Assembly (NCBI RefSeq): GCF_023674465.1
Contig: NZ_CP098400.1
Coordinates: forward strand, 1,116,001 to 1,180,000
Origin: Xiashengella succiniciproducens
Lineage (GTDB): Bacteria > Bacteroidota > Bacteroidia > Bacteroidales > Marinilabiliaceae
DNA length: 64,000 nucleotides
Direction of reading: 5' to 3'
The translations under genes were made by a program, and so were the position numbers. The notes beneath the pieces were generated by a model that was given only the letters and a program-made list of their open reading frames with translations, did no database searches and had not been told where the DNA came from. Shown here piece by piece: positions 23,515 to 44,216 of the stretch. The stretch's first letter is position 1. Each line of letters opens with the position of its first letter.

Positions 23515-24332
23515 TCGTCAATCTCTATTTCTGTGTTTACGATTACTTTCCATCTTTCGTCTGATGCAAAACCTTTGGCCGGAGCTGAGGCTTTCAGCGG
23601 TATCCGAAACAATGGGGCATTGTTATTTTGCAAGGCCATGTATAAGGCATTGGCCAGCGGCTGATTGTCAAATACTTTATCCAGCAAATAGCCCAAACGC
23701 TGCAAGGCAGTTACAGGAACATGCTGCAGCAGATTGGCATCAAATGCATTAGGTTGAATACTTTCGGCTAATTCAGCCAAAACGGTGGCCACCCTGTTGA
23801 TGCCACCTACCCGTTTGGCGTATTGTATCAGATCGGTGGCTGTTAGGGCAGGGTTTGAAATTTTTAAGTATCCGGCCTCGGTTTTTCGGGTGTCTAATAG
23901 TGTTGCCGGTATTTCTTTTTTGCTGATGTAGTTCAGCTTCAGCCCTTTTTTCTGCATAGGCCGCAGCACAGGAAAACCGGTAACCACAAAGAACTCCTGT
24001 GGCTGCTGGTGCGATGCTCCATGATAGGCGGCTGCGTTTAACAAAGCCAGGTAATAAGACCGGTCCAATTCCTTCATAAACGCATCTAAAAACAAGGTGG
24101 GGGGAAGGATTCCCTTTGACCTGTATTGGGGCGGTATGATGAGGTAATACCCTTTGTGGATGGAAATAATCTGCTCTTTATCTACCAGCCTTTTCAAGGC
24201 AAACTTATTGGCCGTATCTGACTGCTCAGGAAAATCCGCACGGAACTGGTGCAGAGCAAAAGCATATTTACCCTTTGCAAGCAGGTGGTTTACCCAATCT
24301 TCTGCACTTTTATATTGCCTTGAATCTTCCAA
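23511..24332 (-). CDS. abiEi: AbiEi-family type IV antitoxin / transcriptional repressor
   Basis: The 273-residue protein has the AbiEi layout: an N-terminal winged helix-turn-helix (about 15-75; FALKRLVDKEQIISIHKGYYLIIPPQY), then a DUF4095-like central region (YYLALLNAAAYHGASHQQPQEFFVVT) and an AbiEi_3-like C-terminal part with TATDLIQYAKRVGGINRVATVLAEL. AbiEi proteins repress their own operon and neutralise AbiEii. The start is a TTG at 24332; no ATG is available nearby. The partner toxin is truncated, leaving an orphan antitoxin. A perfect inverted repeat lies 11 bases upstream. Confidence 0.87.
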   Translation of the reverse strand: MEDSRQYKSAEDWVNHLLAKGKYAFALHQFRADFPEQSDTANKFALKRLVDKEQIISIHKGYYLIIPPQYRSKGILPPTLFLDAFMKELDRSYYLALLNAAAYHGASHQQPQEFFVVTGFPVLRPMQKKGLKLNYISKKEIPATLLDTRKTEAGYLKISNPALTATDLIQYAKRVGGINRVATVLAELAESIQPNAFDANLLQHVPVTALQRLGYLLDKVFDNQPLANALYMALQNNNAPLFRIPLKASAPAKGFASDERWKVIVNTEIEIDE

Positions 24333-26028: not shown

Positions 26029-26056
26029 GCTAAACACATGTTTTTGCGGGTGATCC

Positions 26057-26131
26057 TATTTTTATCCTCTTCTAGCAAATACTTTTTTAGAGTTATGTCA
26101 CTTTTATAAGTTATAACTTTATTTGCAAAAA
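26057..26131 (-). pseudogene. Displaced fragment of the brxL-downstream membrane-protein gene
   Basis: These 75 bases lie between ISAon1-like copy 1 and the second IS4 element. If that IS4 element and one copy of its 9-bp duplication are removed, the minus-strand frame of the membrane protein (27449-27749) continues in phase as NKVITYKSDITLKKYLLEED and then meets the end of ISAon1-like copy 1. The gene was therefore cut first by the ISAon1-like element and later split by the IS4 element. Confidence 0.7.
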
Positions 26132-27448
26132 CATTACTGTCCCATTAAAATCTAAAAAAGTTCTTTGAAATATTTGAAATTTAGTTAATTACAGAGGTTT
26201 TTAGAGCGAACGGACTTGAATTTTTAGTTTTGCATCAGATAAATCTGAATGCATATGTATCAAGACAAATACGTTTTCGCTCAACTGGTCTCGTTTCTAA
26301 ATCGAAGCAAATTCAATCGTATTGTTGCCAAATACAATGGAGACAAATACGTGAAGCATTTCACTTGTTGGAATCAATTGCTTTCTTTGATGTTCGGGCA
26401 ATTGTCAAATCGTGAAAGTCTTAGAGATTTGATTGTCGCACTTGATGCTCATCACTCCAAATCTTATCATCTGGGCTTGGGCAAGAATATATCAAAATCA
26501 TCTCTGGCCAGAGCCAATCAAGACAGAGACTATCACATCTTTGAAGAGTATGCTTACTATCTGGTAAACGAAGCCAGACAGAAACGAGTTGCTGACATCT
26601 TCAAAATTGAAGGCAATGTCTATGCTTTTGATTCAACGACGATTGACTTGTGCCTTTCCGTATTCTGGTGGGCGAAGTTTCGTAAGAAAAAAGGCGGAAT
26701 CAAAGTGCATACATTATATGATGTGGAGACACAGATACCAGCATTTTTCCATATCACGGAAGCTTCTGTTCACGACTCTACTGCAATGAAAGAAATCCCT
26801 TATGAATCAGGCTCATATTACATATTTGACCGTGCATATAATCACTTCAAAATGTTGTTTAAGATTCATCAGATAGGAGCTTTCTATGTTTTAAGAGCCA
26901 AAAAGAATCTACAATGCAAGATGATAAAATGGAAACGAAGATTGCCCAAGAACGTACTTTCAGACGTAACAATTGAATTGACAGGTTTTTATCCTAAACA
27001 ATACTATCCAGAACATCTTAGATTGGTCAGATATTGGGATGAAGAACAAAAGCGTGAGCTTGTATTCTTAACCAATGCGATGCACATTTCTGCACTTCAA
27101 GTTGCTGACCTTTACAAGAACCGCTGGCAAGTCGAGCTTTTCTTCAAGTGGCTAAAGCAACATCTAAAAGTCAAGAAATTCTGGGGAACTACTGAAAATG
27201 CTGTTCGAATTCAAATCTACGCCGCGATGTGCACTTATTGCTTGGTGGCAATCGTCCAAAAAGACATGCAACTTGACAGAAGTACATATGAGGTTTTGCA
27301 GATACTGAGTATTTCTTTAACAGATAAAACTCATCTTCGAGACCTATTTGAGAGAACTAAATTTCAAAATGATAAAGAACGTTTTAGGCTTAGTGAGCCA
27401 AATTTGTTTAATTTTTAATACCGTCCCAATTTTAATGGGACACTAGTG
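26132..27448 (+). mobile_element. IS4-family insertion sequence (copy type B) with 9-bp target duplication
   Basis: A 1317-bp element with ends CATTACTGTCCCATTAAAA (left) and CACTAGTGTCCCATTAAAA (right, read inward). TTGCAAAAA occurs immediately left (26123-26131) and right (27449-27457), a perfect 9-bp target-site duplication, so this is a simple and probably recent insertion. It contains one complete transposase gene. Confidence 0.93.
26249..27418 (+). CDS. IS4-family transposase (second type)
   Basis: The 389-residue protein has the DUF4372-like N-terminus (F-A-Q-L-V-S-F-L-N-R-S-K-F, then NQLLSLMFGQLSNRESLRDL) and DDE motifs VYAFDSTTIDLCL, YIFDRAYNHFKML and DLYKNRWQVELFFKWLKQHLKVK. It is clearly related to but distinct from the transposase at 22220-23293, so these are two different elements of one family rather than copies. 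Confidence 0.93.
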   Translation: MHMYQDKYVFAQLVSFLNRSKFNRIVAKYNGDKYVKHFTCWNQLLSLMFGQLSNRESLRDLIVALDAHHSKSYHLGLGKNISKSSLARANQDRDYHIFEEYAYYLVNEARQKRVADIFKIEGNVYAFDSTTIDLCLSVFWWAKFRKKKGGIKVHTLYDVETQIPAFFHITEASVHDSTAMKEIPYESGSYYIFDRAYNHFKMLFKIHQIGAFYVLRAKKNLQCKMIKWKRRLPKNVLSDVTIELTGFYPKQYYPEHLRLVRYWDEEQKRELVFLTNAMHISALQVADLYKNRWQVELFFKWLKQHLKVKKFWGTTENAVRIQIYAAMCTYCLVAIVQKDMQLDRSTYEVLQILSISLTDKTHLRDLFERTKFQNDKERFRLSEPNLFNF

Positions 27449-27749
27449 TTGCAAAAAGAATAAGAAAAGCTGATAGTAATATTGAAAAAATAAATATAGT
27501 CCAAATTAAAAGATGATTGTATCTAATACTAAATCCGAAAACTCTTCCAGATATATAGACAGCAATCAAAAGCAACGAGCAAATAAGAAGATAATAAAAT
27601 ACCTTCCAACCAAACTCCTTTCTAAAAATCTCTACTATTCTTTCGGAATTATACTTTGAGTTTATACTTCCAATCTCATTAATTGCTAGAGGAAAGGCCA
27701 TAGCAAAAATAGCTATAACCAAAGGGATACAAATCTGTAAAATTTCCAA
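27449..27749 (-). pseudogene. Truncated small membrane protein, last gene of the BREX operon
   Basis: A TTG start at 27749 lies one base after the brxL stop, with a good GGAGGG ribosome-binding sequence inside the end of brxL. About 100 native codons remain: a hydrophobic N-terminus (about 4-24), a charged stretch, and two strongly hydrophobic segments (about 50-72 and 80-100). The IS4 element interrupts it after L-F-A, and a further ~24 codons lie at 26057-26131. Family not recognised. Its tight coupling to brxL suggests a role linked to BREX or an accessory defence function. Confidence 0.65.
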
Positions 27750-27750
27750 A

Positions 27751-29784
27751 CTACTTCCCTCCTCTAACTATATACATACTAAACTCCTTGCATATCCTCT
27801 TTTCTTGATAATACTCGGCAAAATCCAGCATTCCACCAGTTCGTTGCCAAATATCTAAGCCTCGACCTAGTGAGATAGTCCATCCATTATCCAGAGAAAT
27901 ACTGCGATCATGAATGCTTTCATCAAACTCGTATGTGAAATTTACATCCATATCCATTAGAGAATCATGCAAGTCATCAAACGTATCAATCATTTCTGGT
28001 ATTTTATCATCTGAATTGAATGTTTTAAGGTGGATAGCAATCAATTCTTCATCCACTCTTTTTGAAATGATTAAACGTATCAATTCCATTAAATTTCGTA
28101 CTTGGTATGGCATTCGGATGTAAGGGTCTACTATTGTAACTTGATGAACTCCAACTAGATATTCGCCGAATAATTTATCATAACTAACATTCGATTGATT
28201 CTCTCTTATGGTTACTGTTTTAGGAGCTAAATCAATTACTTTTAAATGTGTACTGATAGGGGTAGTAATTTCATCGATACTTTCTTTCGTTTCCACAATT
28301 GAATTTTCTGAAAGTATTAAATGTTTACCGTATTCCAGTTCTTCCAAGGTCTGAATATACGTTACTTTACTATCAGCATCTTCATAACTAAATGTTACAG
28401 GATCTTCATTAAAAGTTTCATCCATTTTAATCAATTGATCCTTAACTCGCTTACGACATTCTATCGCAAAATCAAGAATCAGTTTGACATCTTCTTTGCT
28501 CACATTTAAATCCGGATGAAGAATTTTAATTAAACCAGAAAACGTTTTTTCAATACCTACTTTATCACGTGTGGTTATAGAATTAGAAAGAGTGAAATAC
28601 TGTTGGTATAATTTACTATAATCCTCTTTTCTTAGTGCTTTAAGTACTTCTGCTATGTAATCAACAATAAATCCGAAATCTGAAGTAAATAATTCATTTC
28701 TTAACTTCGAAACCTCCCAACCTGGGATGTAGGCATGAATACGATCTAAGAATGCCGTATCTTGATAATCCTTTGGTAAAGCATCGAATAGGTGACTATG
28801 CTTCATCATATAACTTACCGAATGGTCTGTATTCCCTACGAAAACCATGGAAGCCTCTGCTTGATATACATCTGTCCCCCTAGAAAATGATTTATTGGCC
28901 ATGTAGTTTTTCATGATATCGACCAAGCCACGATCTACTTTTTTCGATTTCCCTGCAAATTCATCATAAGCAATGACGTCCCAATAACCAACTAAACCAA
29001 TATTACCATTGGAGTTATTAACAAATAACTTTGCTTTTGATACTTCACCTCCAGAAATTAAAATACCATGAGGTGATAACTCTGAATAGATATGAGACTT
29101 TCCTGTCCCTTTTGGACCTAATTCAATTAAATTATAATTGTTTTCCGTAAATGGAATTAAGCGAGCTAACTGAATAAGTTTAGATCTTGTAGAAAATTCC
29201 TCTGGATTAAGACCTATGGATTGCATCAATAAATCCATCCATTCGGTTGTAGAAAATTGACTACGTACCTCTTTATAATATTGAATATCTACATTAGAAA
29301 TTTGAATAGGCTTTACACTCTCAATAATCCAAGGTGGTGTATTTCTTTCTTCAACAGCTAAATACGCTACATTGATTAAAGACCAAACTCCTTCGGTTAA
29401 AATCTTCGGATTGTCTTTAACAATTTGATCTGCAATAGGAATATTATTTAGCCCTAAATTACTAAAACGAGCTTCGTAGCGATCTGCCTTATCATTTAGT
29501 TTAACCGAAATTTTATCGATGATTCTATGATTACCTTTTTCACGAATCACTGATTTGATCACTTCCGCTTCATCACGATGAACAAAGTGATTAGAAATGA
29601 TGGACTTTACTTTTTCAATCCCGTGTTTAATGATTTCTTCATCGTTGGTAGAACAATGTTGTCCTAAAAGATATTCTAATACATAAGACGGAACTACGGC
29701 ATTACCTTTCAGTAATTTCGTTAAATCTTTTCGAACGACTTTACCTTCGAAATGTTCGATTGTTTTTTTATCAAGTTCTTTCAT
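27751..29784 (-). CDS. brxL: BREX protein BrxL (AAA+ ATPase with MITD1-like C-terminal domain)
   Basis: 677 residues. N-terminal BrxL region (about 1-215), then an AAA+ core with Walker A GPKGTGKS (223-230), Walker B-like DVIAYDEFAG and the sensor-like VFVGNTD. A linker follows to about 525. Residues about 525-677 resemble the MITD1 C-terminal (MIT_C, phospholipase-D-like) domain: VDPYIR (552-557), IHDR (624-627), then DNGWTISLGRGLDIWQ. I see no Lon Ser-Lys protease site, which the family name would imply. In type 1 BREX, BrxL is required for phage defence; related BrxL proteins form DNA-binding ring assemblies. Its ATG overlaps the pglZ stop (TAATG). Confidence 0.92.
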   Translation of the reverse strand: MKELDKKTIEHFEGKVVRKDLTKLLKGNAVVPSYVLEYLLGQHCSTNDEEIIKHGIEKVKSIISNHFVHRDEAEVIKSVIREKGNHRIIDKISVKLNDKADRYEARFSNLGLNNIPIADQIVKDNPKILTEGVWSLINVAYLAVEERNTPPWIIESVKPIQISNVDIQYYKEVRSQFSTTEWMDLLMQSIGLNPEEFSTRSKLIQLARLIPFTENNYNLIELGPKGTGKSHIYSELSPHGILISGGEVSKAKLFVNNSNGNIGLVGYWDVIAYDEFAGKSKKVDRGLVDIMKNYMANKSFSRGTDVYQAEASMVFVGNTDHSVSYMMKHSHLFDALPKDYQDTAFLDRIHAYIPGWEVSKLRNELFTSDFGFIVDYIAEVLKALRKEDYSKLYQQYFTLSNSITTRDKVGIEKTFSGLIKILHPDLNVSKEDVKLILDFAIECRKRVKDQLIKMDETFNEDPVTFSYEDADSKVTYIQTLEELEYGKHLILSENSIVETKESIDEITTPISTHLKVIDLAPKTVTIRENQSNVSYDKLFGEYLVGVHQVTIVDPYIRMPYQVRNLMELIRLIISKRVDEELIAIHLKTFNSDDKIPEMIDTFDDLHDSLMDMDVNFTYEFDESIHDRSISLDNGWTISLGRGLDIWQRTGGMLDFAEYYQEKRICKEFSMYIVRGGK

Positions 29785-32336
29785 TAGAATTCATCAATTT
29801 CGGTTAATGTATTGATCTTAATTAAATCATTAATGATAGGATTTAAACGGTCTAAATCTTTCGTGTTATACGCTTTTAAATAGGCTGTTTGGGTACTAGA
29901 ACCCAAGGCATTTAAATCCAGTTTGAACTCAAACATGCGTTCAGAAGGTTGTTCACTTACCGCTTCTAACTTTATCTCCACTTCATTTGAGATTAGATGA
30001 TTGTCCAGGTCGTATAGAGCAAAGAGTACACTAGTGCCTTTGTACTTATCACCCACCGCTTGATCTTGTAATATTTTGAATTTAGCAGAACTTGTTGCCA
30101 TCGATCTTACTTGATCCAAACGAGTAAAAGTGACCTCTTCGAATTTTGTATTTCTTTGTCTAGATAGTTGAATTACCGGAACAATTAATTCTTGTAAGGA
30201 AGCACCTCCATGCACAAATTGCACTCCAAAACCACCTAATTTACGGAAGCGATTGATACCTTTTGGTAAAAGGACTGCTGCTTCTGTTTGTATATTGGTT
30301 GTGTTTTCTAAAGGTACTGTAAATAGATCTTTCGACTTTTGCTTGTCTAAGGTTATACAAAAGCGTGTATGTTCTTTTAAACAATTAGTTACTGATGGAA
30401 ATACTTGTCTCGAATTTTCTTTTATCTCATTGTAATTGAACAAGAAACCATGATCTGCCGTCACATAAATGTTGTATATATTTAAGCTGCTGTAAAGTTT
30501 CTTAATCAATAATTTTAATTGATCCACACACTGCTCTGCTGCTTCAAAGGTATAATACTCAGAACTGCGTTTGTCTCCAATATTATCCATCCAGTTATGA
30601 TAAATATACACCAAACGAGCCGGTTTCAAAATCTCTCTTTGCCCTACAACACCTAACCGCATAAAACTTGCATAATCTAAAACCAGCGCATTAGGTTCCA
30701 CTTGTTGCAATATCTTTTCTCTGTTCGTGCTATTTGTTTTAATTCCATTAATTGCATAATCAATGGAATTCTCTCCCACTATCGCTTCAATACCATTGTT
30801 CGGTAATAGATTGGACATTCCTAAATTGGTGTACGAAGGAATAGAAGCAACTATTGCCTCAAGATCAATCGCATTTGTAGCATCTACTTTTAATTCGTTG
30901 ATTAAATCTTTTGCGAGTTCAAATCTAAATCCATCGGAGATGATGACCACTTTTTTATTTGGATTTACAGCAACGAAATCCTTATAGAAATTGTACTGCT
31001 TTTTTATTTTTGTCGCGTTTAAATTGAAATCATTTTCGGCTAAAATCTTCATCCATGCTTGATTGATTTCAATTAAAAATTGATCGTAATTTTTATTTAA
31101 CTCTTGAAAAACTTCCGTAAAATCTTTAGCCTCTTTTTCCTTTTCTATGTGTTGATATGCTGTATACGCATGTCTGTAGTAGCCATCTAGTTTATAAAGT
31201 TCCTGTTGGTATTTTTGAATATAATCTTCAATAAAATTAAAATCGAAATCGCTGTAATTCCTACGTAAGCGATAATACAACGCCGTATATTTTATAAAAT
31301 CAATTTCTTGATCAAAATCTTCATTAACTTCATTATTCACCTGCCAATCTTTTAGTGTTTCCACTACTTGATTAGGATTGTCTTTGATGTCAGCCAGCAA
31401 TTTTTTGATTTCATGCTGCATAATTTGCTGGGTTTTGATACCAAAAGTTAGTGTACCATCATAGGCTTCTACAATTTTAGTTTCATCAATACCTTTACCC
31501 AGATTTAACATTACCTCTTCTAATTGAGCCCCTTTCGTTTTATCGTCGCTCCATTCCTTAAAGAAAACATCAATTTTAGATAAGGTTACATCGTCTGTAA
31601 TCTTCAGTTGCTTGTATGGATCTTTTGAACTGGCTTCTTTACTATTTTTAGTAATGATATTGTACTTCAATTTTAAGAATAGCGATTGTAGTGCATTGGC
31701 ACTTACTTCTTCTAGCTGTATATGTGTACAATTGTAAACGATTTCTGTAATAACATCAGTAAGCTTTTCTCTTGTAATTGCTTTCCATTGTTTGTCCCAT
31801 TGCTCTTCCGATTGGTTAAGCAATTCAAATAAACCAATGAGGTTAAAGGTATCATTTGCTATTTTCTTTTCATTTAGAATTAAAGAAAGAATAGCATTTT
31901 TGAATTTATATTCATTAAATGGTTTTGCTGTTAAAACAGGCAATAGCTTGGTTTGATATTTTGCTGCTTTCACAAAACGTTTGTATTGTAAAATTAGCGG
32001 AGCATGCGCATGATGAATGGCATATTTTGATAGAATATCCGCTGACTCGTCTACAATTAATTCTTGATTGGCATATAATAAATCCGCCAAAGGGTATTCC
32101 TTTATCGAGTACTTTGATGGTCTAGCAAACGGATGATACAACAGGAATTTAGATCCAGGATGAAGTATTTCTATTTCATATTTTACTTTAAAGTAGTTGT
32201 TGTTTACTTCCAACACTTTAAAATCAGGTTCATCTATAGCCAAAACTTCTTCTCTATATTCTTGTTCCGGATCAAAGAACAATAATATAGGCGTGGTAAT
32301 TTCTTTAAACTTATTGCGTATTTTATCTATTATCAT
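29784..32336 (-). CDS. pglZ: BREX protein PglZ (alkaline-phosphatase-superfamily)
   Basis: 850 residues. After an N-terminal region of mixed helices, the PglZ domain (about 440-740) shows phosphatase-superfamily metal-binding motifs VVIISDGFRFELAKDL and YVTADHGFLFNY, with FVHGGASLQELIVPVI following. A short beta-rich tail ends the protein. PglZ is a core component of every BREX type and interacts with PglX in the methylation/restriction complex. Its ATG overlaps the hipA stop, so it is translated from the hipBA transcript. Full length for the type 1 family. Confidence 0.94.
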   Translation of the reverse strand: MIIDKIRNKFKEITTPILLFFDPEQEYREEVLAIDEPDFKVLEVNNNYFKVKYEIEILHPGSKFLLYHPFARPSKYSIKEYPLADLLYANQELIVDESADILSKYAIHHAHAPLILQYKRFVKAAKYQTKLLPVLTAKPFNEYKFKNAILSLILNEKKIANDTFNLIGLFELLNQSEEQWDKQWKAITREKLTDVITEIVYNCTHIQLEEVSANALQSLFLKLKYNIITKNSKEASSKDPYKQLKITDDVTLSKIDVFFKEWSDDKTKGAQLEEVMLNLGKGIDETKIVEAYDGTLTFGIKTQQIMQHEIKKLLADIKDNPNQVVETLKDWQVNNEVNEDFDQEIDFIKYTALYYRLRRNYSDFDFNFIEDYIQKYQQELYKLDGYYRHAYTAYQHIEKEKEAKDFTEVFQELNKNYDQFLIEINQAWMKILAENDFNLNATKIKKQYNFYKDFVAVNPNKKVVIISDGFRFELAKDLINELKVDATNAIDLEAIVASIPSYTNLGMSNLLPNNGIEAIVGENSIDYAINGIKTNSTNREKILQQVEPNALVLDYASFMRLGVVGQREILKPARLVYIYHNWMDNIGDKRSSEYYTFEAAEQCVDQLKLLIKKLYSSLNIYNIYVTADHGFLFNYNEIKENSRQVFPSVTNCLKEHTRFCITLDKQKSKDLFTVPLENTTNIQTEAAVLLPKGINRFRKLGGFGVQFVHGGASLQELIVPVIQLSRQRNTKFEEVTFTRLDQVRSMATSSAKFKILQDQAVGDKYKGTSVLFALYDLDNHLISNEVEIKLEAVSEQPSERMFEFKLDLNALGSSTQTAYLKAYNTKDLDRLNPIINDLIKINTLTEIDEF

Positions 32337-33619
32337 TTCATTTCTTTTATTAATTCACCTGCTATTTGCTGTGCCAATGTTGGCTCTACTTGAAACATCT
32401 CCGCATATTGCTTCCAGTTTTTTACTAAATCTAGTGCTTGATCGATGATTTTTTCTGGATTGCGAATCGAGTTTTGTTCGGCAATACTTATTAAATCTTT
32501 GCGTTCAAAGTTTTTGCGTTTTCCGTTGATACTCAAGTTGTGCTGGCTCACCCATACACTATCTGGACGATAGGCAAAACAAATATCATAAGCAGGTGCT
32601 AATTTCCATTTTCCTTGCGTATCCATTAAGAATGCAAAGTTTTTGGTGTGATCGTCACAATTGCGTGCTACGACATTAAACACCATACGTTTATACATTT
32701 GTTCTGCCTCTGCATAAGATAAGCGCAATAAACGCATCGTCTGAAACACTTGTTCATAGCTGTAGGACGTGATATTAGCAAAATCGTAATGCTGTAAGGC
32801 ACATAACGTTTGGCTATGTACTTTTTGATTGCCACCTATACGATCAAAACGTTTGGTCATAAAATGCACCCGATTGTTTTCTTCAACCAATCGAGATTCC
32901 ATCATGTCGATCCCAAAATCTGTAGCCATTTTGTAATACGCCATTTCTACACGACCATAACCTTTAGAAATTCCAAATTGCACATCGCTGATTTCATCAA
33001 ATTTGATTAACCAATGCTCGAATCCCTCTTGAGCTAAGGTTTGGCCCGATTTGATTTTACCTGTTTTTTCGTTGTAGGCAATGATTGCTTTTGGGCGCGC
33101 TCCACCGGCAGAAGTTCCCATCTTTAGTACATCCAACATGACATCTTCCATGTTGTGTTGGGTACTAATGTGTAGTTCTTCTTTTTTTTCTAATAACGCT
33201 TTGGTAGTTTCTATTAAATCCGATAATTCCAAATCGTAAGAATTTGATTCCTTGCCTGTAACCGGCTCAAATTCTAAGGCGCCCATTCCTCTTTTTCCGA
33301 TGAAGCATAACAACTCTACCGGATTTAAACTATTCTCCGGACGACCTTGACGCGCTAACCATGCATTGATTAATTCTTTCCCATAACGATCGGGCAATGC
33401 ATCGGCTAACAAGCCAGGCAATCCTTTAAAAGTTTCGTTATCTCTAAATTCCGGAAAACTATAAATACGGTTTTTGTTGGGCATTTTAATGGGGGCAATC
33501 GGAAGCTCCTCTAACTTGAATTGAGGATCATACTCAAAACTTGCTAATCCTCTATTGGAATCCCAAGCTACAGCCCCTACACGTTTCCCATATATATTCA
33601 CAAATGCGGTTGTTACCAT
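32333..33619 (-). CDS. hipA: HipA-family serine/threonine kinase toxin inside the BREX locus
   Basis: 428 residues, full length. N-subdomain (about 5-120) with FKGLPGLLADALPDRYG; then GTSAGGARPK (168-177, ATP-binding loop), FMTKRFDR, the catalytic loop N320-C-D-D-H-T-K-N and the metal Asp in APAYD (Asp345). All kinase residues look intact. Known HipA toxins phosphorylate glutamyl- or other aminoacyl-tRNA synthetases and stop growth until neutralised by HipB. It overlaps hipB by 7 bases and pglZ by 4, so the toxin-antitoxin pair is built into the BREX operon. Confidence 0.93.
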   Translation of the reverse strand: MVTTAFVNIYGKRVGAVAWDSNRGLASFEYDPQFKLEELPIAPIKMPNKNRIYSFPEFRDNETFKGLPGLLADALPDRYGKELINAWLARQGRPENSLNPVELLCFIGKRGMGALEFEPVTGKESNSYDLELSDLIETTKALLEKKEELHISTQHNMEDVMLDVLKMGTSAGGARPKAIIAYNEKTGKIKSGQTLAQEGFEHWLIKFDEISDVQFGISKGYGRVEMAYYKMATDFGIDMMESRLVEENNRVHFMTKRFDRIGGNQKVHSQTLCALQHYDFANITSYSYEQVFQTMRLLRLSYAEAEQMYKRMVFNVVARNCDDHTKNFAFLMDTQGKWKLAPAYDICFAYRPDSVWVSQHNLSINGKRKNFERKDLISIAEQNSIRNPEKIIDQALDLVKNWKQYAEMFQVEPTLAQQIAGELIKEMK

Positions 33620-34100: not shown

Positions 34101-35775
34101 TTACTTAATTACCGCAACTACACCTTCAAACTTAGCATAGTTCACCTTAACGCCATCGTCAAGGTCGAATGTGATTTGCTGGTTGGCAACTTCTTTTAGC
34201 TTTTGCTCGTATTCTTTTAGCTCTGAAATTTGTTTGGCTAAATTTTCATAGGCCTTGAATTCTTGCTTGGTTAAGTTCGCCTCGTTGGCATGCATTTCCT
34301 CATACTTTCCTTTTACGTACTCGATGTGCGGATGCAAATAGTTACGTAAAATTTTCTGTACGGTGTACGCATCCATGCGGTGCATGTACACTAACACACG
34401 GAAAGCTGATTTTTGTGGTGATTTTGGATTAGAACAGAATAACCAATAGATCGGTTTTTTCTTGTACATGGTTCCCGAAATATGGTACGCCCAAAACTGC
34501 TCGCACATCCATTTTTCATAATCCATGCCTAAACATTGGTTGATGAAGTTGAGGTTTTCGGTATGGGATGCATCGCCCCAAATGCGGTGGATGATATCAT
34601 CTACCCGTTTTACCGCATCGTCTGGGAAGGCACAAGTGCTACCCATGATCGGAATAATCGCATCTTCATCGATTTCCATTTGGAAAGGTAAAGCGACATT
34701 ATCTACTGGGTACGGTGCCAATTCTTCATCCGTTGGATTCGGATGCGCGATATGCAAGCCTTTACGCCCTAAACGGTAACGACCTAATAAAGTACCTACG
34801 AGATAAGATAAAAACTGCTGCATCACTACATTAGCCTGAATAGGCAGTACTACCTTTTCGCCTGCTCTGAAGGCTGGCTCTAACGCTTCTAAATCCTCGG
34901 CTTTGAGCTCGTCTTGTAAGATGGTAATGTCTTTTAGAGCTACTTCTGGCGTTAGCTCGTCTTGTAGACCATAGATATCGATAAAAATACGGTTGAGTTC
35001 TTCTTCGTTGGTGTGCAATTGAAAGAAATCTTGGCTCACTTCTGCTACCCAAGCTTCATAAGCCGCTTTCAACGAAACACTTCCCTTACCACTATTCCCT
35101 AATCCCTTTTCCCTGTCTACAAATCCCTTATCACTCTCCACTACTCCCTGTTCCCTAATCCCTAACAAAGGACTTTGCTCAAAATCCCAAGAGATTTCGC
35201 GAGAATCCCAGTCTTTTTTGGAAATGGAATAACAATTTTCAGTTATTTCACTGATATTAGTATTAAGAATATTATCATCTAAAGGTATATTTTGTACATC
35301 AATAGATTGGTAATTCATTGTGGGATTAAAAATATCTAAAATTTTTTGGCATAAATTTGAATTAACTAATGCTAAATATGAATATTTTTGCTTATCATTT
35401 TCAAAAATTGCAGGTGATCCAGCTACATCCCATAAAAAACCTTTAGGTAAAATTCTCGCATTAAATTTTCCTGTTGTAATAAAAGACCAGGTAAAACCTT
35501 CCTTAAAATAAAGATGTTGCAAAGTTGTTTTTGATCTATTAAATTCAGTTTTTCTATTCCAATTAACAAAATATTCTAAATTTCCATACCATTTTCTAAA
35601 ATTTCCCCCTTTTGAATATGGAATCCAATTCTTATTTTCAGAAAAATCAGAAATGTTGATTAAATCTAAATTAATTTTATTTCTTGATAATTCATGCCAT
35701 AATTTTAAGAATATGTCATTCTTACCTGTTGTAATACCTGTTATTATTTGTCCTTTATCCCCTAATTTATTTTTA
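34101..35775 (-). pseudogene. pglX: pglX 3' part (target-recognition half), separated by IS1380
   Basis: C-terminal half of the BREX adenine methyltransferase, beginning NKLGDKGQIITGITTGKNDI, which matches the post-catalytic region of PglX proteins, and ending with a helical segment. An apparent start nine residues earlier (MYKSLNIGK) is encoded by the terminal repeat of the inserted element, not by pglX. Residues coded by 35073-35156 form four 7-residue repeats (REQGVVE, SDKGFVD, REKGLGN, SGKGSVS). The fragment lacks the SAM-binding and NPPY motifs, so it cannot methylate alone. Confidence 0.9.
35073..35156 (-). repeat. Four degenerate 21-bp tandem repeats in pglX
   Basis: On the coding strand the units begin AGGGAACAGGGA, AGTGATAAGGGA, AGGGAAAAGGGA and AGTGGTAAGGGA, each 21 bases long, encoding seven residues with a central Q/K-G. 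They fall between the catalytic and the recognition parts of PglX. Such purine-rich in-frame repeats can change copy number without breaking the frame. Confidence 0.6.
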
Positions 35776-37509
35776 CCTATATTGAGCGATTTATACAAAA
35801 AAAAATAAAAGATAGCTTGCTTATAACCTTGATAATGTGTATTTTAGAGGTATTAAAATAAAAAAACAACACTTCACCATTTAGGTGCACAAGACTATCT
35901 TTTATGAGTACGAAGATAACAAAAATCGGCATTACAACCAATAAAATTTCTGGTCGTGGAGGGCTCCCTTTATTTCTTCGCTACACTGAGCAAATTGGCT
36001 TATATGGGCTAATATCGCGTAATGTTTCTTCTCTGCTTACTGGAAACAGCAAAGGCTTGCAGCTTCAACAGTTTGTAAAACAGATTGTTGCATTTTTTAT
36101 AGATGGCACAAATATGGCCATAAGCAGTTTTGATCAAAGTAAAAAGGATGAAGGATATGCATGTTTGCTTGAATGCAAGACCGACCAATTGGCCTCTTCT
36201 CACCAGGTCAAACGTTTTTTTGGGAAGCTGTCCGTTATTTCAAACTCGGTATTCAATAAGATACTTAATGAACTGTTTATCTGGAGGCTTCACATATCCA
36301 AACCCAAAGTTATAGAACTGGGCATTGACACCATGGTTTTGGATAATGACGATGCTGCGAAACGCGAAGGTTGCGAGGTCACTTACAAGCGTAAGAAAGG
36401 GTTTCAGCCACTTCATATATGCTGGGGCTCGTTTCTGATAGACGTGACCTTTAGAAAAGGAAGTGCTCATTCCAATCATGGATCAGATTACACCGACAGG
36501 GTACGCTCTATAGTAAATCTGATACGCAAGAGATACTCCAAAGAAGTCCCTATTGTGGTGTGCGCCGATAGTGGGTTTGCGGATCAGAAAGCGTACGAGA
36601 TATTCGAGCAAGAGCTTAATATACATTACATTACAACAGGAAAATTGTACAATGATGTTACTGAATATGTAAAGGCTTTACCCATTGACACTTTGGGCAA
36701 AATCACTAAAAATAAAGCAGTCTGGCAATTTGCGGAATTTGCCAGCAAGTTGAAATCCTGGTCCAAGTTTCGTCGTTGCTTTTTTACCAGATTGCACCGG
36801 GATGATACCGGGCAGTACGTAATGGAATTTGGTAAGCCTGACAGCGTCATCTATACCAATATCGGGAACTGTCCTGTCGCTGACAAAAGGCTTCGGGCAT
36901 CCGGTGGAGATGAGTGGTTTAAAGCTGATACCATCATACGAAAATCACACCAAAGAGGAGCCGACGAGTTGATACATCGTAGCATTAAAGAGCTTGCTAC
37001 CAGAGAACAACTTCCTTTTAAATCCTTTGGAATGAACAGAGCCTATTATTTTATGCTGGTAGTTACACACTTTATTTTCGAAGCATACAAACAAGATGTT
37101 ACCGCAGAGGTTATTCCGGTAACCGTATATCCTAATACATTCAGAAGAAAGCTTATTGATTTTGCTGTCAAGATAACCTCAAGGGCAAGGAGTATTGTCC
37201 TGAATGTCACCAGAGTAATTTATGAAACGATAAATATTGAAGAGTTATGGGAACGGTGTCAGTCACCGCCGAAAATTCAGTTTGCATAAGGCAGAACAAC
37301 ATACCTCAGGATTGTAAACCCGTAGTGGTAATGGGAGACTTATGTCCAGACCCATAGAAAATGCGATAAAGTTCGGTTTGAGTGAAAAACAGAACTGAAT
37401 TTTCGTTGAAAAAGTACACGAAAGAAGCCTACCTCTGAGAAAATTTCCGTTTTTTTGAAATCAAGTGAGACGACGGGGGCAGGTGAAATTACGAATCGCT
37501 CAATTTAGG
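35776..37509 (+). mobile_element. IS1380-family insertion sequence inside pglX
   Basis: A 1734-bp element. The left end CCTATATTGAGCGATT and the right end read inward CCTAAATTGAGCGATT differ by one base over 16. TTTTA is duplicated at 35771-35775 and 37510-37514, a 5-bp target duplication. It carries one complete transposase on the plus strand, opposite to pglX. Removing the element and one duplication joins the two pglX parts in frame. Confidence 0.93.
35904..37289 (+). CDS. IS1380-family transposase
   Basis: The 461-residue protein has the IS1380 layout: SGRGGLPLFLRYTEQIGL at the start, DDE-type Asp in ELGIDTMVLDNDDA, Asp in VPIVVCADSGFADQKAYEIF, and Glu in the C-terminal helix near RGADELIHRSIKELATREQLPFK. 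Complete, so the element is probably still mobile. Confidence 0.92.
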   Translation: MSTKITKIGITTNKISGRGGLPLFLRYTEQIGLYGLISRNVSSLLTGNSKGLQLQQFVKQIVAFFIDGTNMAISSFDQSKKDEGYACLLECKTDQLASSHQVKRFFGKLSVISNSVFNKILNELFIWRLHISKPKVIELGIDTMVLDNDDAAKREGCEVTYKRKKGFQPLHICWGSFLIDVTFRKGSAHSNHGSDYTDRVRSIVNLIRKRYSKEVPIVVCADSGFADQKAYEIFEQELNIHYITTGKLYNDVTEYVKALPIDTLGKITKNKAVWQFAEFASKLKSWSKFRRCFFTRLHRDDTGQYVMEFGKPDSVIYTNIGNCPVADKRLRASGGDEWFKADTIIRKSHQRGADELIHRSIKELATREQLPFKSFGMNRAYYFMLVVTHFIFEAYKQDVTAEVIPVTVYPNTFRRKLIDFAVKITSRARSIVLNVTRVIYETINIEELWERCQSPPKIQFA

Positions 37510-39475
37510 TTTTATTAAAAATTTTTATTATATTCTTACTCACCCAATACGCAATCGGGCTACCTGGTATTTTATCAAAATTGGTTTGTGGGATGTTGGG
37601 GTAAAAATTAGTACCTTTTAAAAATTGTTCTTCTTTCTCGTTATTGGATTTGTAATCCACCAAACGATAGTAAGAACCTTTGGCGTTTTGAGGTGTTCTA
37701 TTTTCTAACACAAAAGCCGTAGACTGTACCACTTCACCCGATAATTCTTCAAATGTACGTGGACCCAAGTGCAACATACTTTGTATGGTCTGGTTTAAAA
37801 GTAAGTGTGTTCTGTAATTCTCAAAAGAAGACAAGAACATCCAAGAGTGTTGGTTGATCATCCCCATCAATCCATTTGAACGGTTCAATGCCAAACACAC
37901 CTCCATAAATACAGCAAATAAATCCGCCTTAGTCATCGGATACTGTGCATTTACATAATCCTTTAATTGCGCATTCATAGATTTTTGCCCCATATACGGC
38001 GGGTTTGCTACTACAGCGGCGTATTTTTTAGAAAGCACTAAAGCTACTTCGGTATAGCTTTTTAGTTTGTACCAAACTCCAATTTCTTCTATATCCAATG
38101 TTCCTTGTTTGTCTTTGTTGCTCCACGCATAGTATTGCGCTATTAAAACCTCGCGAGCTGTATCGCTTAAGCTAATTTTTAAAGCCGAACCAATGTTTTT
38201 TCCTTCGCGTAAGGCCTCAAATGCTTTGTACACCTCTTGTACGTGTTGGTTTTGCGTAAACAAGGCTACTTCTTCCGACGTAAAGCCTATACTTTCTGGG
38301 AAAGCATAGATATGCGGTATCACATCCAATGGGTTGTTCATCAACTCCATCGCTTGGCTGATATCTACTTGCTGTAGCTGTTGTGCTGCTTTGAGCAATA
38401 CTGCAAAACGTGCCAATTGCATGGCTCTATCGTCAATATCCAAACCATACAAATTGTTTTTCAAGATGCTTTCAATCGCATTTTTAGCCGTATAGCCTTG
38501 TTCTCGGTACATTTTGTACAACCACTCAAAACCTACTACTAAAATATGCCCCGATCCACAGGCCGGATCAATCAACGTTAATTGTTCGATATCGTCAATT
38601 AAAGCACCTTTGCCTTCGGTTTCATTTTCCACCAAATACTTCATTTGGTCTTTTAAATCCGAATCTTCTTCAAAATCCAGATAGATTTTACCCACGGTAT
38701 TTTCTACCATGTAGTTTACTATCCATTTTGGTGTAAAGATTTGGGTAGCAGCAGGAATATCTTCAGGACGTGCTTTTTTATTCGCTTTAAAACCTTTGAA
38801 GACCTCGTCTTTTTTGTCAGAAATGTAAAACTGATACAACCAACCGATCAATTCTACTTCTTTGAAATCTTCTTCGGCAATTTCGGTATTCAACGCTAAC
38901 AAAAAGCCATCAATACTCAACAAATTTTGAGGAATCAACAATTCGGTATAATCGTTCACTCGCCCAAACACCTGATTGAGCAACGGATGAGTATTACAAA
39001 AATTGATCAACAGTATAGAAAATGCGGTTTCTTCATCATTCTCTAACAAAGCCTTTTTTAAATTGGCTTTTAAGGTAGAATGCGTTACTGTATGGTTCCC
39101 AGCTTTGGCATTTTGCAGAGCAATCGGACTTTGTGTACCATCGGCAAATTGTAAAAAGGGTTCGATGAAACCATTTTCTTCTAATACTTTGATGGCAACC
39201 AAACGGTTGAACCAGGTATAAGCCGCCTCTTCAGCAACATCTTTAAAAGCTTCTTTGTTTGAAGTTATTTTTTCTTTCAGGCGTTGCCATTTGGGTATTA
39301 CGGTTGTGTCATTATATGGTTCGCCACGATGAACATATCCCCCTTGCGTTGCTGTCGGTTCATTTTCTACTTCTCCTTTTTGAGAAAAGCCCCAATATAG
39401 TATTTGCTTCGCCACAGCATCCACTAACTGGATGCGCGCAGCTTTTGCAAACGATTTTAATGCGTTTGTATTCAT
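37510..39475 (-). pseudogene. pglX: pglX 5' part (catalytic half), separated by IS1380
   Basis: The N-terminal 655 codons of the BREX adenine-specific DNA methyltransferase. SAM-binding motif DPACGSGH (303-310), then NNLYGLDIDDRAMQLARFAV and the catalytic NPPY (491-494) in AAVVANPPYMGQ are intact. The frame breaks in SKNIIKIFNK, where the IS1380 element sits, and ends two codons later in IS sequence. Rejoined to the downstream part it gives 1211 residues, the normal PglX length. PglX marks host DNA and is also needed for phage restriction in characterised type 1 systems. Start is one base after the brxC stop. Confidence 0.92.
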
Positions 39476-39476
39476 G

Positions 39477-42400
39477 TTATTTCAAGAATATTTTACCGTT
39501 TTTACTTAATTCAACCATTAGCTTATTGCGTAGTTTTTCTACCAATGCATCCACCTGTTCTGGCGTTTCGATGGTATTCCCCGCAATGATATCTGCAGAA
39601 ACTTGAACGGTATGTATGGTTTTAGGTACATAGGTTTCTCCTTTTTCAGCCGCTACTTTTTTAGCACTTGCATCTTGTAAAAGCTTTAGATTATCCAGTT
39701 TAAAATCGGTCGCTTTTAATTGAAAAATCTCCAGCTCGCTTACTTGTTTTGCTTTTTCAATTTTACCCAATATAGTTGCTTTATCTGCAATGATATGCGG
39801 CTCTGTGATGTTCAGTTCTTGCTTTTTCGCATCCAATTCATTAAAAATAGCTTCATACAATGCGATGACTTCTGCTTTCAACTCCGTTAAACGTTTTTCT
39901 AAAGCTTGTGTTATTTTTTTATTCGTTTTACGAATAATAGGGAAACTGTCCCCTGGTTGATCTTCCGTTTGGAAGTATTGAATCAAGTTTTGTAAATCAT
40001 CTGCAAGATCTACCTTTTCGATGTTTTGTTTGTTATCGAAAACATAGTTTCTCATTTCGTTGTAGCTTTCAAAATTACTATCCACAAACTCCTTGGTAGC
40101 CACATACACATCACGAAATGCTTTCAATTCCTTTTGCTTACTACTTACCAAGGTCATCACCTTTTCTTCGCTACGCGTTTCGTAGATTTCTCTGAGAGCA
40201 GCGTGGAAGTTGTTGAAATGTTTAGCAAACGGATAGCCTGCGTATTCTTCTTTGTAGTGATTTGCTTCTATCAAATAAACAGCAAGTGCTTCTTTAAATT
40301 GCTTAATCAGCTCTGTTACTTCTGCCGAATTTGCAAAAGATAAGGTGATAAAAATATCTTTCACCGCATTTTTGAACTGTGCAACTTCCTCTTGATTGTA
40401 AGCCTTTAGATTTTTGATAATGATGGCCTCACGATCTCTGCTATTAATCGCTTTGGCATAAAAGTCTTTTAGTTCTAACACCTCATTTTGGTATTCAATT
40501 TGGCGGTGTTTTTTATGCGCTAGGTTGAATACGATATGTAGGGTTGCTAAATCTTTCCAACCGTACGGCGCTTTTTCAAACATTTTAACCAAGTCAGCTA
40601 ATGATACTTCATTGCCTAACATGGTAATTTTGCTGTTTACCTCGTTTTCGGCAACATTTAATTCAACATCCATAGATGTTTGCATTAAACCACGTTTGAT
40701 CGCCTCTTGCAAATCGTTGTTACTTTGCGCAAAATTTGCACTCCACGCATGGTTTTTATATAACGACTGAATATGGTAGTTTACCATATCAGTGAATCGC
40801 TGTGCTGGGTTGCTGCTCGAAATATCAGATGCATCTACCACATTTTGATTCGAAATGAATGGCGTAGAGGCAAATAATTTCTCAAAACGAATGATTAAAT
40901 CTTTTAGTAAAACTTCGTTACGTCCGTGAAACTCTTCAAGTGTTTTCGCGCGTGTACCTGTAGCTGATGCACGGTTATCTGATAAATATTGCGCTGTTTT
41001 GCAATACGTAAAAAAGTCTTTTTTGAAATCGTTTTGTTGATGGAACCACTGGTTGATGTTGATACATAATTCATTTGATGCTACTGTCATAGCCAACTGA
41101 TGGATATCAGCCGCCTCAAAAACCATGAACTTGATTTTAAAAGCATCTCCATTGACCAAAATTTTATCATCAATCGCTAATTCAGCTTTGATAGTTCTAT
41201 TTCCTAAGTTAATCGCTGCATCTGGTTTCACCACCTTTTTGATGATACTATCAAAAAAGTATGTTAAACGAGAGTTGGATTTTACTTCTGAATCTGAAAT
41301 GGCATTGGCTACTTTAATTCCTTCGTCATCTAGGAATTTATACTTCCCTTCCGATACTTGAATGATATTTTTATCTACAAGAATATCCAATACTTTCTGA
41401 ACTTTTTCTTGTAGATTTATTTTAACCTCATTGACATTGTTTAATAGCAATATGGTTAAGTTTTCTATGGTAGCAGGTAAATTTACACTTGTATCTTCGG
41501 TAAGATTGGAAATCATGAATAAAACCTTAATCACACGGTCAGCGAAAGGTTTTAAGTCTCCATCGAACTGAATTTGTAAGGCTTTATTCAGAATTGAATT
41601 GGCTGCATGGGTTAGGTTTTTACTGAATTGATCGTTAAAGAAATTATCAAAAGAAATAAAATACCCTAACTCATTCAACTTGTGTTTTTCCGCTGTATAA
41701 TGTGTAATCCCCAGAATTGCACGTTCGGTATTTTTAACGCCTTCGCCCACATAACCAACCGTACTGAATGATTGGAATACATCCGAAATCAATCGGAATT
41801 GGTACGGAACAAATGGATAAGACAAATAAAAATCTTCGGCATTCTTGTAATTGTTGTACAAGTCATGATCGAAAACAAATTGATTTTCAATCGCGCCTTT
41901 GTTTTCTTTATAAAATGGAACTAAGGCTTTTAATCCTTCTTCGTTTTTCTCAAGAATTCTTTTTTGTGTAATATACGCTGCATCCTGAGAATCTAGTGAA
42001 ATCATAGTCTCAAAACGCCCCATGATTTTACCAAAATCCTCTGATTTTCTATCGGTATTGTTAACTAAGTTCTTTAAATCTTGTTGTGCGGTACATACAA
42101 TCCAAACTTTGTTACCAATTTTAGAGCCTATTTCTTCTACAATGGTTTGTAGATTCAATAATAAATCCGTGTTAGCCCCAATGTATTGAGACACCTCGTC
42201 CATCAAGAAAATTAATTTGTGATTATCGCCTTTTTGATTGACATAATCTTTCAATTCTTGGATCAACTCATCTATACGATAATCTTGATCTTCTTTGATG
42301 GCATTTCGTAAGGCGTCTTTATCGATCGTAGCATCCAATTCATAAGCAATATCAATCACTTTAGCTAATCGCATACGAATGATGTCACGAATTTTAGACT

Positions 42401-42998
42401 CGTGCCAATCTTCGCCAATTACTGCCTTAACCTTCTCTTTAAATGTTTCGAAAAGTCCTTTTTGATCAAAGTGCTTTTCTATCAATAAAGCTACTGCAAT
42501 GTTCGTGGTATTGTAACCACGTTTGGCATTTAACTGATTAAATAAAATACGCGTGATGGTATTGTTATTTTTAACAGTACCCGAAACAGCATCAACATTG
42601 AAAATTATTTCATTGACATCTGTTTTGTCTAAGCTATTTTGGATTAGTTGAACATTTGAAAGTGTAACCTCTGAAAGATCATCTAATTTTAAATCTATCA
42701 ATGCTTTTTTGAAACGATCAAAAGCAAATGCACGGGTTTCTTTATTTAAGCAATAGAAGAGATATTTTATAAAGTGAGATTTACCACTCCCATAATAACC
42801 AGAAATCCAAACTCCAGTTTTACCTTCCTTTTTGTTGGTAATGGCATTTAAGAATTTATATAAATTTTTGACGATATCTTGTGTAAAGACATACTCACCA
42901 ATCTCCTGTTCAATTTTATTTTCTTCAAGTTCACTTACTACTACAGCCGGGTTGATATGACGTGTAATATCCTTTTCATAAATATATTGTAGAATCAT
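39477..42998 (-). CDS. brxC: BREX protein BrxC (large P-loop ATPase)
   Basis: 1173 residues. Walker A GYYGSGKSHFIKYL (67-74 core) and Walker B LIFLMDEVSQYIG lie in the N-terminal ATPase half; the remainder is long helical and coiled-coil sequence with several QxLxxK segments. BrxC (DUF499/PglY-like) is an essential core component of type 1 BREX, thought to couple ATP hydrolysis to assembly of the PglX/PglZ complex. It follows brxB by 10 bases and precedes pglX by one base. Full length; no frame disruption seen. Confidence 0.94.
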   Translation of the reverse strand: MILQYIYEKDITRHINPAVVVSELEENKIEQEIGEYVFTQDIVKNLYKFLNAITNKKEGKTGVWISGYYGSGKSHFIKYLFYCLNKETRAFAFDRFKKALIDLKLDDLSEVTLSNVQLIQNSLDKTDVNEIIFNVDAVSGTVKNNNTITRILFNQLNAKRGYNTTNIAVALLIEKHFDQKGLFETFKEKVKAVIGEDWHESKIRDIIRMRLAKVIDIAYELDATIDKDALRNAIKEDQDYRIDELIQELKDYVNQKGDNHKLIFLMDEVSQYIGANTDLLLNLQTIVEEIGSKIGNKVWIVCTAQQDLKNLVNNTDRKSEDFGKIMGRFETMISLDSQDAAYITQKRILEKNEEGLKALVPFYKENKGAIENQFVFDHDLYNNYKNAEDFYLSYPFVPYQFRLISDVFQSFSTVGYVGEGVKNTERAILGITHYTAEKHKLNELGYFISFDNFFNDQFSKNLTHAANSILNKALQIQFDGDLKPFADRVIKVLFMISNLTEDTSVNLPATIENLTILLLNNVNEVKINLQEKVQKVLDILVDKNIIQVSEGKYKFLDDEGIKVANAISDSEVKSNSRLTYFFDSIIKKVVKPDAAINLGNRTIKAELAIDDKILVNGDAFKIKFMVFEAADIHQLAMTVASNELCININQWFHQQNDFKKDFFTYCKTAQYLSDNRASATGTRAKTLEEFHGRNEVLLKDLIIRFEKLFASTPFISNQNVVDASDISSSNPAQRFTDMVNYHIQSLYKNHAWSANFAQSNNDLQEAIKRGLMQTSMDVELNVAENEVNSKITMLGNEVSLADLVKMFEKAPYGWKDLATLHIVFNLAHKKHRQIEYQNEVLELKDFYAKAINSRDREAIIIKNLKAYNQEEVAQFKNAVKDIFITLSFANSAEVTELIKQFKEALAVYLIEANHYKEEYAGYPFAKHFNNFHAALREIYETRSEEKVMTLVSSKQKELKAFRDVYVATKEFVDSNFESYNEMRNYVFDNKQNIEKVDLADDLQNLIQYFQTEDQPGDSFPIIRKTNKKITQALEKRLTELKAEVIALYEAIFNELDAKKQELNITEPHIIADKATILGKIEKAKQVSELEIFQLKATDFKLDNLKLLQDASAKKVAAEKGETYVPKTIHTVQVSADIIAGNTIETPEQVDALVEKLRNKLMVELSKNGKIFLK

Positions 42999-43008
42999 GT
43001 CTTTTATA

Positions 43009-43614
43009 TTATAGTAGTTGATTTAAATGGTTAGCTCTGTATAAATTATCATCATTGAATTCTCCAAACAATGAGTAATTTGAATGTTTAAAGTCTCCTG
43101 GATAGAAAACAATCAATTTATGATTTACCGCTGATTTTTCGATATTTTTCAAGAAATGTGAAACACGTAAATAAGGGAAAATAGTCCCAAATCCGTAAAC
43201 CAAAAAATACACCTTATCACTTGATTTTTCTTTGAAATACGATGTGATTTTTTCTCGGATATAATTTAGGAATTCACTCTCTTCTTGTGCTTTTTCTTTG
43301 ATGTATTCTAGCGCTTCCTCTGGAGCTTCACTTTCTAAATTGATAATTTCATCAATTAAAGGTTGACCAGCAAAAGTTTGAGATTCAAGATAGGCAATAA
43401 ACTCCTGGTAAATATTAATTACCAAACAATTTAAGCTATTGGAAGGGCGCTTAAGTTGCTCGTTTAATATGTTTATTTCTTCACGAATTTGGTATTCATC
43501 TTTCGGATCATACGTATACATATATACTGGAAAGAACAATAAACCCGTATTGGGATCTTTGAATGCTTCGTCAGAAAGCAAATTAAAGATTCTTTCAATT
43601 CTATTTATTTCCAT
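43009..43614 (-). CDS. brxB: BREX protein BrxB (DUF1788)
   Basis: 201 residues with the DUF1788 pattern: an N-terminal RIERIFNLLSDEAFKDP, FPVYMYTYDPKDEYQIREEI in the middle of the first third, DKVYFLVYGFGTIFPYLRVSHFL, and the C-terminal LIVFYPGDF ... YSLFGEFNDDNLYRANHL. Function is unknown beyond being required for defence in characterised type 1 BREX. It overlaps brxA at the stop/start. Confidence 0.93.
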   Translation of the reverse strand: MEINRIERIFNLLSDEAFKDPNTGLLFFPVYMYTYDPKDEYQIREEINILNEQLKRPSNSLNCLVINIYQEFIAYLESQTFAGQPLIDEIINLESEAPEEALEYIKEKAQEESEFLNYIREKITSYFKEKSSDKVYFLVYGFGTIFPYLRVSHFLKNIEKSAVNHKLIVFYPGDFKHSNYSLFGEFNDDNLYRANHLNQLL

Positions 43615-44216
43615 TATTCTGTATCTTCTACATTAGGGTTTAAGATACAAGGTAAAAACCAAGCATCTCCTTTCGTTTTCAATAACTCAACTAATTCATC
43701 AGAAATATGAACAGTAGACAACTTATCTTCTTTAAATACTCCTACATCTTTAAACATTTTCACTGCTACTTGCGATAATTTATAAAGCGAGTGTTCAGAA
43801 ATTGAATTCAACTGTTCTTCAGATAATTTAGAAGATAAGAAGTATTTAAAATCATACGTACTTAGCTCGTTATCGAAGTTTTTCCATTTGTTGAATACGA
43901 CTTCTAGTGCGAATTCTGTAATAATGGAATAGGTTTTACAAATCGCTAAAAACAAGATTACTTTTTGATCTTGCTCCGTGAATAGAGAAAATTTATTTAA
44001 ATAATCGACATCTAAATTCTTTAATCGCTTATCTAATTCACTTTTTATTCTTTTCCGTGAAGACTCTGCATTGGTTACTAAAACATCACTATGTACAGAA
44101 AATTCATTTTTCAAATAATCTTCTGTATAATCAATCGCTTGTATGAAATAAAGAGATTCATTATACAAAAGCGCACCTGCTGTAAATGCTAAATTATATT
44201 TCATCTCTTTTTTCAT
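43614..44216 (-). CDS. brxA: BREX protein BrxA (DUF1819)
   Basis: 200 residues, matching the DUF1819 pattern: N-terminal K-Y-N-L-A-F-T-A-G-A-L-L-Y-N-E-S, mid-region QDQKVILFLAICKTYSIITEF and FVLEVVFNKW-like segment, then the winged C-terminal region with QVAVKMFKDVGVF. Structural work on other BrxA proteins shows a NusB-like, DNA-binding fold. Its start lies 23 bases inside the end of the small XRE regulator, so the two are translationally coupled. Confidence 0.92.
   Translation of the reverse strand: MKKEMKYNLAFTAGALLYNESLYFIQAIDYTEDYLKNEFSVHSDVLVTNAESSRKRIKSELDKRLKNLDVDYLNKFSLFTEQDQKVILFLAICKTYSIITEFALEVVFNKWKNFDNELSTYDFKYFLSSKLSEEQLNSISEHSLYKLSQVAVKMFKDVGVFKEDKLSTVHISDELVELLKTKGDAWFLPCILNPNVEDTE

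Follow-up and report, generated by a model that had tools for sequence, protein, structure and literature searches.

A MITD1-family phospholipase D-fold domain replaces the Lon-like C-terminal domain in a type 1 BREX BrxL

A BREX operon was found on the minus strand of the window, the whole stretch of 64,000 nucleotides from Xiashengella succiniciproducens that was analysed, with the gene order BrxA, BrxB, BrxC, PglX, HipB/HipA, PglZ, BrxL. The brxA (43614..44216; PF08849, E=6.9e-29), brxB (43009..43614; PF08747, E=6.6e-24), brxC (39477..42998; NF033441, E=8e-205) and type A pglZ (29784..32336; TIGR02687, E=1.7e-117) genes were assigned by profile matches. The pglX gene is split into a 5' part (37505..39475, profile positions 1-654) and a 3' part (34101..35798, profile positions 655-1170), both on the minus strand and both matching PADLOC PDLC02521, by a plus-strand insertion sequence (35772..37510, ends approximate) that carries a DDE_Tnp_1_4 transposase at 35904-37289. 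When the pglX flanks were joined without the insertion sequence, a single open frame of about 1209 codons was obtained. Because pglX is cut in this way, this BREX copy is probably inactive, and the findings on BrxL described below therefore concern the BrxL family rather than this strain. A second copy of the same transposase is present in the genome (locus L095, 13003-14388). A HipB/HipA-type pair (32333-33960) is inserted between pglX and pglZ, and an AbiEi-type antitoxin gene (23511-24332) lies near several insertion sequences. The same genome also encodes a type 4 BREX system with BrxP, BrxC, PglZ and BrxL (L095, 105-9412; G000:C1, about 1463104-1472411), whose BrxL has 476 aa and no tail.

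The brxL gene (27751..29784, minus strand) encodes a protein of 677 aa that matches the PADLOC BrxL model PDLC02508 with E=1.5e-290. It contains a BrxL_N domain (residues 10-141, 29362..29757; PF20442, E=3.5e-47) and an AAA+ ATPase domain, Pfam BrxL_ATPase (residues 152-460, 28405..29331; PF13337, E=6.5e-133), with intact Walker A (GPKGTGKSH) and Walker B (DVIAYDEF) motifs that align to those of the Acinetobacter BrxL structure (PDB ID 8emc). These domains, together with the adjoining pglZ in a BREX operon, identify the protein as a type 1 BREX BrxL. Its C-terminal residues 533-673 (27766..28188) match the MIT_C family (PF16565, E=4.8e-42; 143.7 bits against a cut-off of 25), and the match covers model positions 2-141 of 142. 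When the whole protein was used as one phmmer query, residues 2-482 matched Acinetobacter BrxL (8emc, E=3e-146), whereas the match to MITD1 covered residues 522-667; the tail has thus been exchanged where the AAA+ module stops. The N-terminal and AAA+ domains are thus like those of Acinetobacter BrxL (PDB IDs 8emc, 8emh and 8eil), but the tail of the latter is an inactive Lon-like domain, unrelated to the MIT_C tail by profile comparison. The Lon-like C-terminal domain of type 1 BREX BrxL is replaced here by a phospholipase D (PLD)-fold domain of the MIT_C (MITD1) family.

A phmmer search with the tail alone retrieved human MITD1 (PDB IDs 4a5z, E=5.3e-18, and 2ymb, E=6.7e-18) with 144-146 residues aligned. 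A model of the full-length BrxL predicted from the single sequence reached a pLDDT of only 35 and was set aside; the tail was predicted from a 66-row tail alignment, whose rows were picked by an HxR pattern, with a pLDDT of 95.5 and a pTM of 0.90. The top five Foldseek matches of this model were all MITD1 (TM-score 0.81-0.83 by query, E about 1e-16), and superposition on MITD1 gave TM-scores of 0.83/0.88. In VIA-align, the Z-score was 22.5 for MITD1 and dropped sharply to a second tier of the PLD superfamily, i.e., phosphatidylserine synthase (8.9), SauUSI (8.8), NucT (8.7), Tdp1 (8.5) and NgoAVII (8.0). Z-scores of about 8 are weak on their own, but they are backed by the sequence homology to MITD1, which is itself an established PLD fold; the modelled tail accordingly has the predicted fold of the PLD-superfamily nucleases. 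The Pfam model PLDc_2 matched just two of the 66 tail domains, and weakly. The first-pass annotation had proposed, from the order and spacing of four motifs, that the BrxL tail has an MITD1-like PLD fold rather than a Lon fold, and both the profile searches and the structure prediction bear this out. The motifs do occur in that order, VDPYIR at residues 552-557, IHDR at 624-627, DNGW at 632-635 and GRGLD at 640-644, and by sequence comparison their agreement with MITD1 is no accident.

No Lon_C match was found in the window BrxL up to E=1 in a Pfam search. The NCBIfam model of Lon-tailed BrxL, TIGR02653, gave a match that stops at position 488 of its 675 and scores 617.9 bits, under the cut-off of 628.25, and an hhalign comparison of the MIT_C tails with Lon-type BrxL tails gave a probability of 0.9%. 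As controls, Lon-type BrxLs of Bacteroidota matched Lon_C (E=1e-10 and 4e-16) as well as the solved Lon and BrxL tails. A Lon-like fold was therefore ruled out by the missing Lon_C match and the hhalign result, and the window BrxL lacks the Lon-like C-terminal domain of characterised BrxLs, a domain that is not universal in BrxL (PMC12839542). The window protein also has no Lon_C domain with the Ser-Lys dyad that defines the Lon protease (S16), so the first-pass annotation was right that a Ser-Lys motif is absent. As an argument against Lon, however, this observation fails, because the ordinary Lon-like BrxL tail is also without the dyad (PMC10164562, PMC12839542) and its absence cannot tell the two tail types apart.

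How many BrxL homologues carry the domain, a question raised with the initial proposal, was addressed in several collections. A sample of 395 Bacteroidota genomes contained 30 with MIT_C and 40 with BrxL_ATPase, and MIT_C ends 25 of the 37 full-length BrxLs, counted by hand from the two tables as BrxL open frames of at least 640 aa. A GTDB scan yielded at least 573 confirmed relatives; most of the 80 that were kept have a whole BrxL, and in the others the contig ends within the gene or no ATPase motif could be recognised in the reading frame examined. Plasmid searches with tblastn added members from Gammaproteobacteria, Alphaproteobacteria and Actinomycetota; a Methylomonas plasmid carries an intact BREX operon of the MIT_C type. 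Nearly all prokaryotic MIT_C domains among the matches listed lie within BrxL. In IMG/VR, 29 contigs (L177-L205) encode MIT_C BrxLs, and these may be host or prophage sequence; no MIT_C BrxL was found in a phage collection of 50,697 records.

The domain swap itself is already published. A paper of January 2026 described a C-terminal "HKD-endoDNase" that replaces LonP in 1030 of 2913 type 1 BrxLs with Lys changed to Arg, stated that the resulting HRD motif "likely preserves its enzymatic activity" and credited the tail to the Menshen paper (NAR 2025 gkaf357) (PMC12839542, NAR 2026). The protein, the position of the swap and the H-x-R substitution are the same as in the window BrxL, and since position, fold and substitution agree, the published domain is almost certainly the MIT_C tail. 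MITD1 has no occurrence in PMC12839542, and a literature search found no publication naming both MITD1 and BrxL; the NCBI product name of some MIT_C BrxLs is "MIT C-terminal domain-containing". What is new here is the kinship with MITD1, the nesting of human MITD1 among BrxL tails, and a conserved pocket unlike that of active HKD enzymes.

This pocket was defined on 144 unique domains, human MITD1 included, which were aligned with the HMM and span Bacteroidota, Spirochaetota, Pseudomonadota and Actinomycetota. On one side lies the DPYIR motif (residues 553-557, 28114..28128, minus strand), where D553 is conserved in 141/144 domains and R557 in 140/144. The HxRxxxxD motif, HDRSISLD in the window (residues 625-632, 27889..27912, minus strand), has H625 in 141/144 and R627 in 142/144. 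At the place of the GSxN of active PLDs stands GRGLD (residues 640-644, 27853..27867, minus strand), with R641 in 140/144 and D644 in 143/144; these RGLD counts are biased upward by the RGLD-containing pattern with which the GTDB loci were found, a bias from which the HMM-found members of the Bacteroidota sample and the tblastn-found plasmid members are free. Two further pocket residues, Q561 (142) and R663 (141), are equally conserved. In the modelled tail, the pocket residues are predicted to lie in or by strand-end loops (after 38-42, before 118-121, after 125-129 and before 158-164), and the order and place of these loops in the model secondary structure are those of the PLD catalytic edge. 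Near-invariant residues at this edge imply that the PLD site is strongly constrained. A near-invariant charged pocket of D553, R557, Q561, H625, R627, R641, D644 and R663 is thus shown at the phosphate-holding site of the PLD fold, in a domain that is acidic overall (net charge -9 in the window tail, mean -5.6).

The pocket nevertheless differs from that of active HKD enzymes. In place of HxK(x)4D, the domains have HxR (142/144), and the residue at position 632 is Asp in 105 and Asn in 36 (25% Asn), including human MITD1; GSxN after the HKD motif is replaced by GRGLD or DRGLD. The equivalent Lys-to-Arg substitution (PLD1 K898R, PLD2 K758R) is the standard way of killing PLD enzymes and serves as the dead control in mammalian PLD. 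The PLD-fold restriction nucleases SauUSI, NgoAVII R protein, BfiI and NucT share the fold with the BrxL tail (Z-scores 7-8.8) and have the His in the same motif order, but they carry HxK...GSxN whereas the BrxL tail has HxR...GRGLD. The replacement of Lys by Arg, of Asp by Asn in 36/144 and of GSxN by GRGLD puts the published statement on HRD activity in doubt; on motif grounds, nuclease activity of the MIT_C tail appears possible but doubtful. PMC12839542 treats activity as likely, whereas in the present analysis the Asp varies and the pocket is common to a eukaryotic membrane-binding protein.

The C-terminal domain of human MITD1 (PDB IDs 4a5z and 2ymb; MIT_C) is 30-32% identical to the window tail domain-wide and has all the pocket residues of the BrxL tails, with Asn at the position of D632. 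The two differ in context, as the human domain is fused to a MIT domain in a protein that partners ESCRT-III, whereas the BrxL tail sits on an AAA+ ATPase. Human MITD1 is known as a membrane-binding cytokinesis factor and not as a nuclease, and by its title, Hadders et al. 2012 (as cited in PMC9477494) reports that the PLD-fold domain of MITD1 binds membranes.

A few prokaryotic MIT_C domains lie outside BrxL. A plasmid of Ca. Thiodictyon syntrophicum (L229, 3628-6468) encodes a 947-aa fusion of MIT_C with a dynamin-like GTPase, in which Dynamin_N matches over the full model (E=2.8e-20) and the R557 equivalent is Ala. At L082 (6113-9310), about 17 Sel1 repeats come after MIT_C, and the neighbouring genes encode a DNA methylase and an Mrr-type nuclease; at L085 (4868-7706) and L086 (1919-4188), a MIT_C-like protein comes directly after an AAA ATPase, for which the best PADLOC match at L085 was NsnB (Menshen). 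Some of the non-BrxL domains lie in defence loci, either by NsnB or by a DNA methylase and Mrr nuclease. A candidate BrxL at a Paenarthrobacter locus (L227) was rejected, being an IF2_N-MIT_C fusion.

The open frame directly downstream of brxL encodes a putative membrane protein, which the first-pass annotation had taken as co-transcribed and as a hint at membrane recruitment of BrxL. It proved to be a 5' fragment of codons 1-103 (27441..27749, minus strand), 80.6% identical to residues 1-103 of an intact 451-aa gene with a membrane N-terminus that directly follows brxL in Sphingobacterium cellulitidis; the listed open frame extends to 27432, into the end of an insertion sequence. This plus-strand insertion sequence (26133..27440, ends approximate), which has inverted ends with TCCCATTAAAAT and by Pfam contains a DUF4372/DDE_Tnp_1 transposase at 26249-27418, breaks the gene, and a further fragment of codons 98-131 (26031..26132, minus strand; tblastn E=2.9e-6) lies past it, beside a second insertion sequence. 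Among the loci searched for this pairing, about 98 of them with more than 900 nt downstream, only one besides the window (L097) has the membrane-protein gene after a MIT_C BrxL, there intact, and relatives elsewhere stand beside type I or type III restriction genes or alone. A conserved pairing of BrxL with the membrane protein was accordingly rejected, as there is a single other case and the gene family also occurs away from BrxL. With the gene broken, the pairing nearly absent and the intact gene found in unrelated contexts, the window locus offers no evidence for a membrane protein dedicated to BrxL. Members of this protein family at L097 (4481-5836) and L085 (2445-4685) have a membrane-spanning N-terminus and no Pfam match, and the family has BREX, type I or type III restriction genes as neighbours.

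BrxL is required for phage restriction in some BREX systems. With moderate confidence, we favour the reading that the MIT_C tail engages DNA phosphate on the BrxL ring, possibly as a nuclease. BrxL encircles the DNA that it binds, and two of its rings are joined through their tails (PMC10164562); an independent group has read a tail of this kind as a DNase (PMC12839542). Like Acinetobacter BrxL, the MIT_C BrxL would form ATP-dependent rings that hold duplex DNA and meet at their tails, and the tails, at the ring equator, would use the pocket to contact the phosphodiester backbone of this DNA. They may then act as a PLD nuclease of an unusual HxR type, two tails together forming a single active site, or they may hold on to the DNA and thereby regulate the BrxL ring. 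The former is the catalytic branch of this reading and coincides with the published proposal, made for 1030 BrxLs, that HRD keeps its activity and the tail is an HKD-type endoDNase that would degrade phage DNA (PMC12839542), so that the confidence placed in the two overlaps. The fold shared with the SauUSI, NucT and NgoAVII nucleases and the almost invariant His and Arg are consistent with such an enzyme; since essentially all domains have Arg for Lys, a quarter have Asn for Asp and GSxN is absent, we regard it only as a tentative candidate. Against the DNA reading as a whole, every pocket residue is also present in human MITD1. About one-third of surveyed BrxLs bear this DNase-labelled tail, with a motif unlike that of active PLD enzymes and common to a human membrane-binding protein.

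Two other explanations were considered. The tail may have a purely structural, non-catalytic role, as an exchangeable part through which two BrxL rings meet tail to tail and the ATPase is tuned. This is the role of the Lon-like tail that it replaces, which has no catalytic activity left and holds ring dimers together by their tails (PMC10164562); two unrelated folds taking the same position and the tailless type 4 BrxL of the same genome also fit this explanation. However, a bare interface would need no His/Arg/Asp pocket that is nearly invariant in at least four bacterial phyla and also kept in human MITD1, and we consider this explanation rather unlikely. Least probable to us is that the tail binds membrane phospholipids as MITD1 does and brings BrxL to the membrane. 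Its closest solved homologue is indeed a membrane-binding PLD-fold domain with the whole pocket in common, and one bacterial MIT_C domain is fused to a dynamin-like GTPase, but BrxL is a DNA-loaded ring (PMC10164562), the domain is acidic, the neighbouring membrane-protein gene is broken here and intact after one other MIT_C BrxL only, and several of the other prokaryotic MIT_C contexts are DNA-defence loci.

The kinship with MITD1 also points to a possible bacterial origin of part of a protein that acts in human abscission. We tentatively consider, at somewhat less than even chances, that a bacterial BREX effector was the source, through its C-terminal domain, of the membrane-binding domain of MITD1 and that the same pocket was kept in both; if true, a phage-defence DNA module became an ESCRT-linked cell-division module. 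A 59-row tree of the domain sequences suggests that the eukaryotic MITD1 tail may have been acquired from a bacterial BrxL, the reverse direction also being possible. Human MITD1 falls within the spread of BrxL tails and is sister to a subclade of five of them (L002, L003, L203, L226 and L228) with 98/98 support, in a tree of a short domain with a single eukaryote and a long-branch outgroup. The tails of this subclade are 43-50% identical to human MITD1, above the 30% identity of the window tail.
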